Assembly (NCBI RefSeq): GCF_009766105.1 | Contig: NZ_LMUH01000005.1 | Span: 272,315-336,314, forward strand | Length of the DNA: 64,000 nucleotides | Direction: 5' to 3' | Source of the DNA: Granulicella sp. S156 | GTDB taxonomy: Bacteria > Acidobacteriota > Terriglobia > Terriglobales > Acidobacteriaceae | In this document: positions 44,537 through 50,672 of the stretch, piece after piece | Numbering within the stretch: the first letter of the stretch is position 1 | Layout: every line of letters starts with the position of its first letter | The notes under the pieces: generated by a model | The model's input: the letters and a program-made list of their open reading frames with translations, nothing else | Database searches by the model: none | Told to the model about the DNA's origin: nothing | Translations under genes and position numbers: made by a program

Positions 44537-47530
44537 TTAGAACGTCGTCGCGACCGTAAAGCGGAACGTCTTACGCGGTTCGCGCAGCTCGTAGTTTGCA
44601 CCGTAGAGCTGTATTGCTTGCTGGTAGCTGTACTGGCCGGCACCCGTGGTGGGGAAGAAACCCTGGAACTCCGACGATGACACAGCCAACTGTGGCGGCA
44701 GGTTTCTGTAGAGACGTAGCGGGTTGTACGCGTAGTAGATGCGGAACGGTGCGTTTACGATCGGCAGAATGACCTGCAGCTCGGCGCCGCTCGACATACG
44801 CGGAACGAAGTTCGTATGAGGTACCGTGCCCAGGTCGAGCGGGAAAGTCACCTTCTGTCCGCCGAAGCATGCGCCGTTGGTGATTGTCGGGCAGCCATAG
44901 AGCGGCGTGTTGAGAATCGACTGGCCAAGGATGCTCTGGCGCAGCTGTGACTTTTCCGTGTCGAAGGTCATGCCGAAGTCTGTGAAGACCGCAAACGTTA
45001 CCTGGTTGACGATCGGGATACGGTACTCGAGGTTCGACGTGATAGCCGTGTCGCCGCCGATGGGGGCCAAGCGATAGATCGGCAGTGGAATTTGAACGTT
45101 GCCCAGCGTGGAGTTGGTCGGATCGCGCGGAACCAGTGTGCCGTCGGGATTTGTAAGGTTGAACAACACGCGCGTCGGAATGAAGCTGTACGGCGAGTTC
45201 GAACGGATATCGAAGCCGCGTACTTCGCTTTCACCACCGCCGTAGATACGATCGAAGGGCGGTGCAACCTGCCCGCCAAAGCCGGCGACGTTTTGGAGCT
45301 GGATGCGATAGCCCAGGACGTTGTGTCCTTCACGATCGACCTTCAGGCCTTTCATCGGGAAGTATTGGCGCCAGGTTGCCGTCGGAGCGTAGTACTTGGT
45401 GTTGCCACCTACACCCGCAACCTGGAAAACAATGTTGAAGTCCTTGCCGTGGTGCGGACCCACAGCGCGATCCAGCGTCGAGAAGCTGAAGCTCGGGGAC
45501 ACGATGGAGGTGATGATGCCGGAGAGCTGGCTCGACCCCGCAACACCCGAACGGAACGCCAGTGATTGGAAGACGTTGCGTGTGGTGTCGCTAAAGGTTG
45601 TGACGCCCGACCGCGACAGCGAGTACGAGATGCCGATCCTGGCTACGCCCGACCGCCGGAACAACTTGCGCAGCGGCGTGCCGGTCGAAATCGTCAAGCC
45701 GGTTGAGGACTGGTTGTAGTTGCTCGACAGCGACTGTTGCTGGGCGGCCTGATTCGAACCTGCCGTTGTCCCGGTAATCGAGTAGCTCTTGGCCGGGTTG
45801 TAGTCGTACTTGCTGGTGAACACCTGCACGCCCAGCGAAACGGGCTTGTTGCGCAGATACGGCTCGTTGAAGCCCGCGCTCAGGGTGCGCGAGAGATCGC
45901 CGATGTTGGCGGTCACGTTCAGGGTCTCGCCCAGGCCGAGGAAGTTGTTGGTCTGATAGTTGAGTCCGATGAAAGAACCCGAAAGACCGCTGATACCGCC
46001 GTTCAGTCCGATGGAGTTCTTGCCCTTTTCCTTCAGCTTCAGCAACAGGTCGACCGTGCCGGCATCACTGTTCTGCCGCGTCTCCACGGACTCTTCGGTC
46101 TTCAGCGTGTCGAAGTAGTTGAGCTGGTTCAAGCGCAGCAGCGAGAGATCGACGAGGCGGCTGTTATAGACCTGGCCTTCTTCGACGAGGATCTCGCGGC
46201 GGATGACTTTGTCGCGGGTGATGGTGTTGCCTGAAAATTCGATGCGCGAGATATAGAACTTCTTGCCCTCGTCGATGTCGATGTCGAAATAGACAAGCTT
46301 CTTGGCTTCGTCGAAGCGGGGCGTCGGAGTGCCGATCATGTTGATGAAGCCGCCCTCACCGTAAGCCTTACGCAGTGCATCAACGCCTTTGCCGAAGAGC
46401 GTTGCATTGAACCAGTCGCCGTCCTTCACCGCGAATTGTGCGCGCAAGGCCTTGACGTTGCTGTATTCCTTGTTGCCGCTAAACGTGATGCCGCCCAGGC
46501 GGTAGCGTTCGCCCTCTTCGACCGGGATCAGGATGTCGACGCGCTTGCCGGTTGAAGGGCGCAGCGTGAACGGGTTGATGCCGCCGGCGTTGCGAACATT
46601 GGTCTCCGGCTCGGCGGTCAGCGCTTTGATGTAGCCCCTGTTGCGATACTCCTGGCGCACCAGATCGGCATCTTCATCCAGCTTGCTGGCATCGAAGGTG
46701 CGTGGAAGAAGATCCTCTAAGAAGATCGAGTGGGGAATGCCAATCGGCTTGGAGAAGTGCATCGCGGCGCGCAGATCGCGCGAGGGAATCTTCGTGTTGC
46801 CCTGGAAGGCAATCTTGCCCACCTTTACGGTCGGGCCTTCCTTGATGTTGAATGTCAGCGCTACGGCAGCAGGAGGAATCGTCTTGACTTCTTCCTTGAT
46901 GGTCGCGAACTGGTGGCCATGCTCGCCGAGCATCTCCTGCAGTACGACCTCGGCGCGCTTGATGCGCGTCTCGTCGAACTGGCTCTCCACGGAGAGGCCG
47001 ACCTTTTCCTTCTTGAAACGATCGAGCACGTCGGAGACGGTGACCGCGTTCAAGCCCTTGTAGTTGATCTCACGGATGGTGGGCTTTTCGCGCACGTACA
47101 CGATGAGTTGGACGCAGGTCGCCTCATCGACGCGCTCAATGCGCACGTCGTCGAAGTAGCTGGTGTTCCAGAGCGAGTTGAAATCGCGCTCCACCACCGC
47201 CGGATCGAAAGCATCTCCGGGCCGCGAGAATAGTCGCGCAAGGATGGACTCCTTGGGGATGCGGCGATTGCCGATGACCTGTGTCTGGCACAGAATCTGC
47301 GGTCCCGCTGCAGCCGCAGTGAACTGCGGCTGGGCCTGCACCTGCGCTCGAAGCGCGGGTGTGAGAACTGGAGTCAATGCCATTGTCGTCAGCGCCAAAA
47401 ACGCGTTGACTGGAATGCGGATGCGCCTCGAGCGCGCGCGCACAGGCTGGGGCGTACTGTTCAGGGAGCTTGCGCTCACTCGCGTTCCGGTAAAGATAAC
47501 CACACCCTCACTGCTCTTTGAATCTCTCAA
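44537..47530 (-). CDS. bamA: Outer membrane protein assembly factor BamA
   Basis: The 997-residue protein has a signal region, five POTRA domains (about residues 75-495; e.g. REINYKGLNAVTVSDVL, VGKIAFQGNTKIPSRDL, LGGITFSGNKEYSNVKAL, ISRIEFSGNTITRDKVI) and a 16-stranded barrel with GINGGISGLSG-like SIGLNGGISGLSG and PYLRNKPVSLGV. The C-terminal residue is Phe (FTVATTF), the outer-membrane insertion signal. It folds other barrel proteins into the outer membrane. It is about 190 residues longer than E. coli BamA, with a Gln/Ser-rich insertion (AQQQSLSSNYNQSS). The frame starts with TTG at 47530, with no clear ribosome site, so the exact start is unsure. Confidence 0.92.
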   Translation of the reverse strand: MRDSKSSEGVVIFTGTRVSASSLNSTPQPVRARSRRIRIPVNAFLALTTMALTPVLTPALRAQVQAQPQFTAAAAGPQILCQTQVIGNRRIPKESILARLFSRPGDAFDPAVVERDFNSLWNTSYFDDVRIERVDEATCVQLIVYVREKPTIREINYKGLNAVTVSDVLDRFKKEKVGLSVESQFDETRIKRAEVVLQEMLGEHGHQFATIKEEVKTIPPAAVALTFNIKEGPTVKVGKIAFQGNTKIPSRDLRAAMHFSKPIGIPHSIFLEDLLPRTFDASKLDEDADLVRQEYRNRGYIKALTAEPETNVRNAGGINPFTLRPSTGKRVDILIPVEEGERYRLGGITFSGNKEYSNVKALRAQFAVKDGDWFNATLFGKGVDALRKAYGEGGFINMIGTPTPRFDEAKKLVYFDIDIDEGKKFYISRIEFSGNTITRDKVIRREILVEEGQVYNSRLVDLSLLRLNQLNYFDTLKTEESVETRQNSDAGTVDLLLKLKEKGKNSIGLNGGISGLSGSFIGLNYQTNNFLGLGETLNVTANIGDLSRTLSAGFNEPYLRNKPVSLGVQVFTSKYDYNPAKSYSITGTTAGSNQAAQQQSLSSNYNQSSTGLTISTGTPLRKLFRRSGVARIGISYSLSRSGVTTFSDTTRNVFQSLAFRSGVAGSSQLSGIITSIVSPSFSFSTLDRAVGPHHGKDFNIVFQVAGVGGNTKYYAPTATWRQYFPMKGLKVDREGHNVLGYRIQLQNVAGFGGQVAPPFDRIYGGGESEVRGFDIRSNSPYSFIPTRVLFNLTNPDGTLVPRDPTNSTLGNVQIPLPIYRLAPIGGDTAITSNLEYRIPIVNQVTFAVFTDFGMTFDTEKSQLRQSILGQSILNTPLYGCPTITNGACFGGQKVTFPLDLGTVPHTNFVPRMSSGAELQVILPIVNAPFRIYYAYNPLRLYRNLPPQLAVSSSEFQGFFPTTGAGQYSYQQAIQLYGANYELREPRKTFRFTVATTF

Positions 47531-47878
47531 AGCTTTTTGAATACCAAGCCCCGCGCGAACGTAGGGGAATCTTGATTATAGGGGATGCGCCGCAACTCGG
47601 GAGAAGCGAAGTTCGATGGGTGACTCTTCGGTGTATATAAATCCCGCCTGCTCCAGGAGAGACTTGCCGTTTCGCCCTATCCGAATCTCTCATCTCGACC
47701 GGCGATCCGTGTTTGCCCGTAGCTGCAATGGTGCTATGGGCAGCCGCAAAAGCCTGGACGCAAGGCGCGCAAAAGGAGCAAAGTTTCGCCACGGATGCCT
47801 TTGCGAAACTTGGCGTTTCTCCTTGGCGCGCTTTGCGTCCAGGCTTTTGCTTGTTCTTCGTCTGTGCTCGAAACCGCT
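47531..47878. other. 348-bp gap between exosortase and bamA, with a 105-bp palindrome
   Basis: The stretch must hold the bamA promoter and the exosortase terminator. Its main feature is an imperfect inverted repeat (47746-47850): GCAAAAGCCTGGACGCAAGG with following bases pairs with GCGCTTTGCGTCCAGGCTTT and preceding bases around the centre ACGGATGCCTTT. A CATCTCGACCGG motif at 47691-47702 resembles one end of the 59487-59636 element. No ORF of interest is seen. Confidence 0.6.
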
Positions 47879-49489
47879 CTAGCGCCTGCTATAAGGAACG
47901 GTCAGGCCCACAAGATCCGCGTTCTTCAGAAACTCCTGCAGCCCTGCTGCCAGCTTTGGTTCGACCTCGCTCACCGGAGATTCTGTGTCGGCGGTCTCAA
48001 CCTTCAGCAGCACTGGAACAGGCCGTGTCGTATCGGATTGCAGGGGAAGAGTACGGTGCGGCTTGGCATATACCACGGTGAAGCGTTGATTTGTCTGTGA
48101 ATACTGTCTGCATATTCCGCCGTCGCATACCGTGGAGGCTTCCAGCTTCTGCGTCTGGCCATCGTTGTAGGTCGCGGCCGTCAACGCAACCGCTCCCACC
48201 GCTCCCTGGGACGAGGGTACTTCGATCTGTCCGTGCCAGGTTGGATTCTCACCGCGAGCGATGTGGCAGACCTCGGCATCGTGCACGCCCAGCTCTGGAG
48301 AGATTCCGAGCGATACATGCGTTCCATCGGGAGTCTCGTACTCGCCCCACACGTAGACTACAGTTCCGTCGACCAGGCCCTCAGACCACGTGCGTACCAG
48401 TGAGAAATTGCCAATGTGCTGCGGCATGGGAGGAGGCGTAGCTGCTGCCGTCGCGGACTTTGCCTCGACATGCGCGGCATGCACGGCTTCAATGCCAAAG
48501 ACCGTCGAAAGCAGGAGAATCGCCATTACCTTTGCAAGGTAGGGCACTGCGACTGGGCCGAGGGATGGTTTTTCTTCCGCGGGTGCGGCATTCACGTCTT
48601 CAGGATCGCGGCGCAGCTTTTCAATCATCGTAAAGAACAGGAATGCCGCCAGTAAAAACAGGCAGCCCCCGACGATGTGATCGGCCAACTGCTCGTGGGC
48701 CTGTAGTCCTGGGAAGAAAACCGCAATCCTGTCGTAGATCACCAGGCTGCACAGCCGCAGCAGATTGAAGACATAGCCCAGCAGCACCGCGCCGGCAACC
48801 AGAGGCGCAAATATAAACCAGCGAAAACGGTACACATAGCTGACCACAATCGCGGTGAGCCCGAGGGTGATCGATCCGCGCAGTCCATCGCAGCCTGGCG
48901 CAATGAACATCCCAAACTTGGGAGTGAACAGGATGGTGAGGTCCTGCGCGCTAAGCTTCGCCCCAATGAGATGGGCAAAGCCACGTGCTACGGTCGCCCC
49001 GGCATGTTGAAGAGGAAGGTCGACGTAGTGGCTGAAGGTCTGTGGAACAGGGATAACGGCCCACATCAGAAGGACGGGGAACCATGCGGCCCGCAGAAGG
49101 CGCTTGCCGCCGAAGAGCAGAACCATGGCGGTTGCATAAATTACGGCTACCAGCGGAAGCGGTGGTAGCTGCAGCAGCCAGTCTTTGTTGACGGTCACGA
49201 TCAGGAGCATCTGATCGCGCAGAAACATCAGAATGGACGAGATTGCCAGGACTGCGAAGCCCCACCAGGAGCCTTCAGTCTCCCATCCTATGGAACGCCA
49301 GGCTCTCAAAATGAGAGCGAAGCAAATGATAGGAACCACCATTCCTATCTGCTTGAGGGCGTCCGTCCTCCAGATGCCTAGAAGAGATTGGACAGAATCA
49401 TAAATGGTAAGCAGGCCGACCGCTGCGCACGCCGAAGCGAACGCGACGGCAGCCTGCGGCCTAAATCGCTCTGGAAGCATGCTCGACAC
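47879..49489 (-). CDS. xrtJ: Exosortase (J-like) fused to an EpsI-type C-terminal domain
   Basis: The 536-residue protein has about eight membrane segments (to about 290), with the exosortase triad: C200 (FIAPGCDGLRGS), R245 (FNLLRLCSL) and H271 (LADHIVGG). The remainder (about 310-536) is a periplasmic EpsI/DUF3485-like domain (WSEGLVDGTVVYVWGEYETP, HDAEVCHIARGENPTWHG). Exosortases cleave and anchor proteins carrying a C-terminal PEP-type sorting signal. The immediately upstream gene encodes such a signal. The start is GTG at 49489 (AGGTAA 9 nt before); an ATG at 49480 is the alternative. The J label is from family memory and not tested. Confidence 0.87.
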   Translation of the reverse strand: MSSMLPERFRPQAAVAFASACAAVGLLTIYDSVQSLLGIWRTDALKQIGMVVPIICFALILRAWRSIGWETEGSWWGFAVLAISSILMFLRDQMLLIVTVNKDWLLQLPPLPLVAVIYATAMVLLFGGKRLLRAAWFPVLLMWAVIPVPQTFSHYVDLPLQHAGATVARGFAHLIGAKLSAQDLTILFTPKFGMFIAPGCDGLRGSITLGLTAIVVSYVYRFRWFIFAPLVAGAVLLGYVFNLLRLCSLVIYDRIAVFFPGLQAHEQLADHIVGGCLFLLAAFLFFTMIEKLRRDPEDVNAAPAEEKPSLGPVAVPYLAKVMAILLLSTVFGIEAVHAAHVEAKSATAAATPPPMPQHIGNFSLVRTWSEGLVDGTVVYVWGEYETPDGTHVSLGISPELGVHDAEVCHIARGENPTWHGQIEVPSSQGAVGAVALTAATYNDGQTQKLEASTVCDGGICRQYSQTNQRFTVVYAKPHRTLPLQSDTTRPVPVLLKVETADTESPVSEVEPKLAAGLQEFLKNADLVGLTVPYSRR

Positions 49490-49532
49490 AGAAAATTACC
49501 TGCAGCGTTCGAGCTGCACCCCGTTCGGAACT

Positions 49533-49727
49533 TTACTTGTTGTCTGTCTTCCGGCGGGCCCGAAGACGCGTCCTGAGTGCGGACACAGCGTACGCGCCAC
49601 CGGAGAGGCCTGCCAGAATCAGGGTCGGGTTCTCTGGAGTGTCAGTGCAGCCGGCAACCTGCGCATGCGCAGAGCGGACCGCTACAAGGGCGAGGGCGAG
49701 GGTCGCGAACAAGAAGGTCTTCTTCAT
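49533..49727 (-). CDS. 64-residue PExPT-CTERM protein, probable exosortase substrate
   Basis: The whole protein is two signals: an N-terminal signal peptide (MKKTFLFATLALALVAVRSAHA) and a C-terminal sorting tail made of PENPT (31-35), a hydrophobic segment (LILAGLSGGAYAVSAL) and a basic end (RTRLRARRK). Between them is only QVAGCTDT with one Cys. If both are cleaved, the mature peptide is about 8-13 residues. It starts with ATG after AGGGAC and ends 43 bp before the exosortase gene, so the two form an operon. The tail order PEP-like motif/hydrophobic/basic is diagnostic of an exosortase target. Confidence 0.82.
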   Translation of the reverse strand: MKKTFLFATLALALVAVRSAHAQVAGCTDTPENPTLILAGLSGGAYAVSALRTRLRARRKTDNK

Positions 49728-50060
49728 AAGTAATATGTCCCTATTCGTTGTGTGTGCGTTCAGTTTTAAAGATGCCGTTAGCGCTCAGTTTAGATGCTTC
49801 AGGCCCTCAAAAACGTTCGGGATAAACTGCTCAGAACATTATTGCTTAGGAATCTTATAGTTCTGGCGATTGGTCCTATCGTATTCGAGCAGCCGGTCTC
49901 AAGTCAATCGTAAAGCGAATCCCTGAAGATACGGACGCTGAATCTCCGAATATTCCGCATCCAGCGTTTCCTACCCCTTGAGTTTAGCTCATAACTGGCA
50001 GAGAGCAGGACATTTCGCCACTTTTTCACATTGAGCCGCCAACGTCTGTAAAATCAGGCG
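49728..50060. other. Upstream region of the exosortase operon and of frr
   Basis: About 330 bp separate the divergent 64-residue gene and frr. I see no ORF, tRNA or strong hairpin. No convincing sigma-54 (GG-N10-GC) or sigma-70 pair stands out. Only an AT-richer region around 49836-49862 suggests a promoter. Confidence 0.4.
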
Positions 50061-50087
50061 TTGTATTCAATGGAGGGCAGCACCACA

Positions 50088-50672
50088 ATGGCATCGGCAA
50101 TGACGAGCATAGTTGCACTGAAGGGCGTGTACGAGGAGTTGAAGTCGCGCATGGATAAAACCGTGGAAGACTTCCGCGCCAACCTGTTGAGTGTCCGCAC
50201 CGGACGGGCTTCGGTCCATATGCTCGACAACGTGAAGGTTGACTACTATGGTACGGAGACGGCGATTGCACAGGTCGCCCAGGTCACCACGCCAGAGGCC
50301 AACCTCATCGTCGTTCAGCCGTGGGAGCAGTCCCTGGTGCAGGCGATCGAAAAGGCCATCCGCACCAGCGGACAGGGCTTCAATCCCATGCACGACGGCA
50401 AGATCATCCGCGTGCCCATCCCCCCCATGACCGAAGAGCGCCGCCGCGAGGGCATTAAGCAGCTTGCCGGCGTCCTCGAAGACCACAAGACCTCCATCCG
50501 CAACATCCGCCGCGATGGCAATGAGTCGGTGAAGAAGGCCGCGAAGGAAAAGCTGATCTCCGCTGACGATGAAAAACGCGCCAACGACGATATTCAGCAG
50601 CTCACGGACTCCGAGATCAAGCGCGTCGAAGACCTCTTCAAGGCCAAGGAAAAAGAAGTAATGACGCTGTAA
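50088..50672 (+). CDS. frr: Ribosome recycling factor
   Basis: The protein has 194 residues from the ATG at 50088, placed 10 nt after GGAGGG (50072-50077); the frame opens at 50061. Family motifs: SRMDKTVEDFRANLLSVRTGRAS, VDYYGTETAIAQVAQVTTPEAN, PWEQSLVQAIEKAI and PIPPMTEERRREGIKQL, then the C-terminal helix KRVEDLFKAKEKEVMTL. It splits post-termination ribosomes with EF-G. Unlike many bacteria, pyrH is not directly upstream. The end runs into the palindromic tract it shares with folP. Confidence 0.95.
   Translation: MASAMTSIVALKGVYEELKSRMDKTVEDFRANLLSVRTGRASVHMLDNVKVDYYGTETAIAQVAQVTTPEANLIVVQPWEQSLVQAIEKAIRTSGQGFNPMHDGKIIRVPIPPMTEERRREGIKQLAGVLEDHKTSIRNIRRDGNESVKKAAKEKLISADDEKRANDDIQQLTDSEIKRVEDLFKAKEKEVMTL

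Follow-up and report, generated by a model that had tools for sequence, protein, structure and literature searches.

The 64,000-nt stretch of Granulicella DNA analyzed here (the window) carries, side by side on the minus strand, an exosortase J (XrtJ) gene and a gene for a PExPT-CTERM protein of only 64 residues. Because NCBIfam models name both genes, the pair is a curated and already named kind of enzyme and target rather than a new one. We consider it probable (roughly 0.7) that the two form a dedicated pair, in which the tail of the small protein is cleaved and a short Cys-containing peptide is passed to a cell-envelope acceptor. What is new here is that a lipoprotein gene lies adjacent to XrtJ, on the same strand, in 30 of about 70 XrtJ loci. 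Bacterial exosortases were reportedly named in 2006, and to our knowledge neither the acceptor nor the exact chemistry of their cleavage has been settled.

The small gene occupies positions 49533..49727 (minus strand), and its product reads, part by part, MKKTFLFATLALALVAVRSAHA, QVAGCTDTPENPT, LILAGLSGGAYAVSAL and RTRLRARRKTDNK. Residues 1 to 22 (49662..49727, minus) are a predicted Sec signal peptide that ends in AHA; most relatives have A-x-A|Q at this point. The segment QVAGCTDTPENPT follows the AHA and is itself followed by a hydrophobic helix and then a tail rich in Arg. Conservation and the lowest pN/pS of the gene mark QVAGCTDTPE, residues 23 to 32 (49632..49661, minus), as the predicted mature segment, with a nearly invariant Cys27. 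The PENPT motif, residues 31 to 35 (49623..49637, minus), is the presumed region of exosortase recognition or cleavage, and its P and E are invariant in the tail alignment. The helix (residues 36 to 51) and the presumably cytoplasmic tail (52 to 64) lie at 49536..49622 (minus), and relatives share this layout. Against TIGR04200 ("targ_of_XrtJ"), whose curated cut-off is 40 bits, the protein scored 76.0 bits over positions 1 to 57 of 57. It thus has a score above the cut-off, a signal peptide and the PExPT, helix and basic tail that characterize PExPT-CTERM proteins. Scores far above chance, together with selection on the small gene that backs coding (below), confirm that both genes of the pair are real and lie where they had been placed. 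No plasmid homologue of the protein was found. Promoter and terminator scans gave values at or near shuffle levels and were given no weight, and Rfam listed no family within 47000-50200.

The gene for XrtJ (536 residues; 47879..49489, minus) begins 43 nucleotides downstream of the small gene and on its strand, with a GTG start codon and a possible ATG at 49480. XrtJ scored 808.4 bits against TIGR04199 (curated cut-off, 200 bits), residues 19 to 533 matching positions 2 to 522 of 522, and 126 bits against Pfam Exosortase_EpsH (PF09721). It also carries the TIGR04178 signature and the Cys and Arg of the exosortase/archaeosortase superfamily. The window genome belongs to a Granulicella that stands close to G. 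mallensis, and its XrtJ shares 86% identity with the nearest named one. XrtJ was not mentioned in the literature searched, which lay outside the exosortase review of Haft et al. 2012. An AlphaFold2 model of XrtJ (pLDDT, 82; pTM, 0.81; low confidence in the catalytic loop, residues 190 to 199) predicts a helical membrane core up to residue 292, a long helix at 314 to 348 and a C-terminal alpha/beta domain.

In EpsH, a Cys, an Arg and a His are absolutely conserved (Haft et al. 2006, PMC1569441). The earlier note had suggested aligning C200, R245 and H271 with known exosortases, and we compared these residues in an alignment of 90 exosortases, four of which, of the XrtA type, came from the same family. 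C200, N242, R245 and G274 were invariant, XrtA-type rows included, which leaves Cys200 (48890..48892, minus) as the presumed nucleophile and Arg245 (48755..48757, minus) as a presumed catalytic residue. H271 did not hold up: position 271 is His in just 3 of the 90 rows and Tyr in 83. Conservation lies instead with its neighbor, Asp270 (48680..48682, minus), four positions before G274; it is Asp in every XrtJ row and also in one exosortase that lies nearer XrtA/XrtW (locus L106). XrtA rows read FHEFSG and XrtJ rows D-[YH]-x-x-G; by this alignment, the third residue of XrtJ is not the His of the EpsH family. Asp270 appears to stand where XrtA-type enzymes have His, a match that relies on spacing from the invariant G274, since a gap in the alignment adjoins the position.

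The C-terminal periplasmic alpha/beta domain (about residues 350 to 536; 47882..48442, minus) has an invariant H403, C455 and C460. It had been called EpsI-like. XrtJ had no listed match to the EpsI model TIGR02914 at E ≤ 1, no EpsI match was found in the window genome, and hhalign against five EpsI proteins gave a probability of 0.8%, yet with a co-linear alignment and a shared H-x4-C. We therefore regard the EpsI identity as unsupported. XrtJ has no relative of solved structure by sequence, and Foldseek with the whole model returned none at E ≤ 0.001. VIA-align placed the domain nearest DcrB (104 residues aligned at an rmsd of 3.2; Z, 9.1), SciW (Z, 8.3), Mog1 and PsbP, its top rows being mostly of the Mog1p/PsbP-like fold, although a Z near 8 can be background and Foldseek gave none at E ≤ 0.001. 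The domain is tentatively predicted to have a Mog1p/PsbP-like fold. Its likeness to SciW, EagT6, DcrB, PsbP and Mog1, at 3 to 12% identity and Z of 8 to 9 (near background), shows no function. SciW binds a transmembrane segment of its own cargo, and on that analogy it is thinkable that the XrtJ domain may hold the substrate. Five XrtJ-like exosortases consist of the core without the C-terminal domain (L194, L195, L196, L197 and L198); several come from metagenome-assembled genomes (MAGs) labeled Nevskia, Gammaproteobacteria or Deltaproteobacteria, and some lie near PExPT and lipoprotein genes.

How general is so small a substrate? A profile search over loci fetched from searched genomes and contigs yielded 92 distinct PExPT proteins, nearly all of them tiny (about 55 to 75 residues). 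A recognizable [AGS]-Q cleavage site is present in 81, and in 58 of these the stretch that runs from Q through the E of SPE is exactly 9 residues long. Usually the mature part reads QxGCx[DN]SPE, with 9 residues as the mode; the window protein has 10. The very short mature product that had been proposed is therefore borne out, and across the family. It had also been called unusual, which is right in comparison with exosortase substrates in general, but within this already named family a tiny substrate is the rule. Eighteen PExPT genes of the window's locus type gave a median dN/dS of 0.18, and pooled pN/pS was 0.16 for the mature segment, compared with 0.39 for the signal peptide and 0.36 for the helix and tail. 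The gene is under purifying selection, which is strongest in the short mature segment.

We then asked whether enzyme and substrate occur together. Among 297 genomes drawn from the phylum, XrtJ and PExPT proteins exceeded their cut-offs in the same 13. A draw of 300 genomes from the family contained 34 with both, 3 with PExPT only, 2 with XrtJ only and 261 with neither (Fisher, 6e-39, relatedness ignored). In one of the XrtJ-only genomes (G517), a long PExPT protein below the cut-off adjoins XrtJ; in the other (G419), only the C-terminal portion of the XrtJ model is matched. A tail-only profile found exactly one PExPT tail in the window genome, the one described here, and a handful in other genomes; at E ≤ 0.5 it revealed no hidden long PExPT substrate in the window genome. 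With one tail, the pair is one to one there, and the claim that the small gene is dedicated to the adjacent exosortase is upheld by this and by the nearly perfect co-occurrence. Two genomes count against a dedicated pair: G559, with seven PExPT genes (L084-L090), and G373, with one (L064), have no exosortase by PF09721. Both assemblies are fragmented; either they are incomplete or the small proteins are able to act without an exosortase.

Could the small protein instead be a regulator or subunit that is retained in the membrane and gates XrtJ, the real cargo being something else, such as a lipoprotein that lacks the PExPT tail? The lack of a cargo domain, the single copy beside a single enzyme in the window genome and the adjacency in most loci would all suit such a role, as would a multi-copy lipoprotein family that is enriched in XrtJ genomes (see below). 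Against it, some genomes hold 3 to 7 PExPT genes, many of them far from any XrtJ. Moreover, rare long family members from two other lineages, L109 (232 residues, Gly-rich) and L111/L200 (144 residues), bear the same tail on mature parts of about 95 to 110 residues, as substrates would. We consider a gating role improbable.

A dedicated pair could also produce a secreted signal, the mature peptide being matured by XrtJ as AgrD is by AgrB. The small protein does have a leader, a short Cys-containing core and a charged tail; the core is its most conserved part, and genomes contain 1 to 7 copies. Strain-specific pheromones diverge fast, whereas distant species share almost the same core (QxGCx[DN]SPE), and the loci have no conserved receptor kinase as a neighbor. 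A signaling role thus seems very improbable.

The conserved Cys raises a further question: is the small protein a lipoprotein, cut by signal peptidase II before the Cys (VAGC) and anchored by a lipid on it? V-A-G-C in the window protein fits a loose lipobox, and in 84 of 90 relatives the residue just before the Cys is Gly. Across the family, a lipobox-like -3/-2/-1 is present in only 18 of 92, with Gln at -3 in 59, and most relatives have the conserved type I site AxA|Q. In L109 and L111 the Cys adjoins SPE, far from the leader. We rejected the lipoprotein interpretation of the Cys as a family rule, and there is little chance that it accounts for the window protein. The Cys itself is present in 90 of the 92 distinct relatives and missing in 2. 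Since the rare long relatives (L109 and L111/L200) keep it just before SPE, the Cys looks like a part of the sorting signal. A PExPT-like protein without Cys (RRRRSPENPT; L106:5027-6128) adjoins the exosortase nearer XrtA/XrtW mentioned above; as the only one paired with a non-XrtJ exosortase, it offers a weak hint in the same direction.

The idea that a larger exosortase substrate was frameshifted or truncated and left this gene as a remnant, for which the absent cargo domain alone speaks, can be dismissed, given relatives that are tiny in nearly all 92 cases, a median dN/dS indicative of purifying selection and a position beside XrtJ that is conserved in three main locus types; the two grounds for doubt that the earlier note had itself named, long homologues elsewhere and a frameshifted remnant, were tested and did not materialize.

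We return to the dedicated pair and to where it might act. Parsing of 71 named loci gave three main types. In the first, the order is PExPT-XrtJ-lipoprotein: the 30 lipoprotein (A1-domain) genes lie within 500 nt of XrtJ, mostly downstream. The second, to which the window belongs, has frr on the opposite strand and then PExPT-XrtJ-BamA; its roughly 16 to 18 loci all come from Granulicella, Bryocella or MAGs that belong with them. In the third, XrtJ stands alone, and some of these genomes have an orphan PExPT gene elsewhere. A quick tree resolved the BamA type as one clade (SH-aLRT, 100) beside a clade of the lipoprotein type (98), with the core-only exosortases at the base. BamA, the next gene downstream of XrtJ in the window (44537..47530, minus; TIGR03303, 443 bits), is a conserved neighbor in the Granulicella/Bryocella clade, where it takes the lipoprotein's place; we regard it as a candidate association only. 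The description of the pair as a self-contained module fits the window locus but not the many relatives that add an adjacent beta-propeller lipoprotein gene.

Between XrtJ and BamA lies a palindromic element of about 105 to 117 bp (47746-47850), in which outer arms of 28 nt, 93% complementary, enclose inner arms of 17 nt. The window genome has some 20 or more similar copies at other places, which likens the element to a REP/MITE repeat. Three XrtJ loci from records labeled Rhodanobacteraceae or Verrucomicrobia (L159, L181 and L165) fall within the Granulicella/Edaphobacter group, and these records are probably mislabeled or mixed bins.

The lipoprotein of the first locus type is about 650 residues long. 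It has a lipobox, a domain with four invariant Cys and an HGGQQP motif, a beta-propeller of the NHL type and a conserved C terminus (G-x-A-x-P-V-x-T-P ... P). Its model is confident (pLDDT, 89; pTM, 0.88) and matches virginiamycin B lyase as well as NHL propellers. No Pfam or NCBIfam model covers the whole protein, and no description of this neighbor of XrtJ was found in the literature searched. The family occurs in 33 of 36 XrtJ genomes compared with 30 of 264 others, and it also adjoins many orphan PExPT genes. One member (L165:9570-11504) and about 50 relatives make up a multi-copy GGQQP lipoprotein family with up to 41 matches per genome, and in G434 such genes form tandem arrays around C1:5134961-5149580. 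The window genome has 24 matches to one member, none adjoining XrtJ; two genes of the family lie on the same contig upstream of the window, 4 to 11 kb before its start (G000:C20:260860-268004).

Orphan PExPT genes of the SPECPT kind have envelope neighbors of another sort. Five of them (L095, L096, L097, L104 and L105) adjoin SLBB/Poly_export (Wza-like) and GNVR (Wzz-like) genes, L096 having an O-antigen-ligase-like gene as well, while L102 and L103 adjoin genes for a nucleotidyl transferase and a hexapeptide transferase. The neighbors, from the lipoprotein and the Wza/Wzz-type genes to BamA in the window's clade, are envelope genes, and by gene neighborhood they point to the outer envelope and exopolysaccharide as the place where XrtJ and the PExPT protein may act.

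For the dedicated pair we propose the following course. The 64-residue protein would be exported by Sec, and signal peptidase I would take off its leader; the C-terminal helix would keep the leader-free protein in the inner membrane. XrtJ, through Cys200 and Arg245 and probably aided by Asp270, would attack the PExPT region from the periplasmic side and remove the helix and the Arg tail. QVAGCTDTPE(NP) would then be handed on to an acceptor in the envelope. Both cleavage and transfer are ascribed to XrtJ by analogy with the exosortase and archaeosortase families. The product would resemble a tag or handle, a peptide with one conserved Cys and no protein domain. As far as gene neighborhood indicates, it may serve an outer-membrane or exopolysaccharide structure together with the beta-propeller lipoproteins. 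A bolder version casts XrtJ as a peptide transferase and not a cargo sorter, one with Asp in place of His, to which the PExPT protein donates QxGCx[DN]SPE for an outer-membrane or exopolysaccharide acceptor that is served by the adjacent lipoproteins. We regard this version as doubtful.

As a TIGR04199/TIGR04200 pair, the window genes, neighbors that both score well over their cut-offs, do not differ from what is curated. These names do not cover the lipoprotein or BamA neighbor, the Asp at the His position or the orphans beside export genes. With the exosortase A/PEP-CTERM system (EpsH; PMC1569441), the pair shares a polytopic enzyme with a conserved Cys and Arg, a tail made of motif, helix and basic residues, and a link to exopolysaccharide genes. 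In contrast to PEP-CTERM genomes, where the substrates are usually numerous and diverse and have large mature domains, XrtJ in the window genome has one tiny substrate. The motif of the PExPT family, unlike PEP-CTERM, is PExPT after GCx[DN]S; XrtJ also has Asp where XrtA has His. Archaeosortase A (ArtA), which acts on PGF-CTERM, belongs to the same homologous superfamily; its C-terminal processing and lipid attachment are established (PMC9263693), but its substrate is a large S-layer glycoprotein. The MYXO-CTERM signal resembles the PExPT tail in having an invariant Cys before the helix (PMC11980579). Its partner, the myxosortase MrtX, is an unrelated protease of the CPBP family, whereas the PExPT partner is an exosortase; MrtX has large receptor substrates such as TraA, and Cys lipidation has been proposed there (PMC11980579).

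A one-to-one pair with an almost cargo-free substrate comes close to a minimal exosortase system. Because the predicted mature product has about ten residues and can be synthesized, a direct enzyme assay is feasible, and Asp in place of His offers a testable active-site variant. The lipoprotein gene and the Wza/Wzz export genes indicate where to seek the acceptor, the conserved lipoprotein neighbor being a handle on what exosortases attach to. If XrtJ does use the PExPT protein as a peptide donor, then Acidobacteriaceae would possess a small surface peptide-modification system built on a sorting enzyme.
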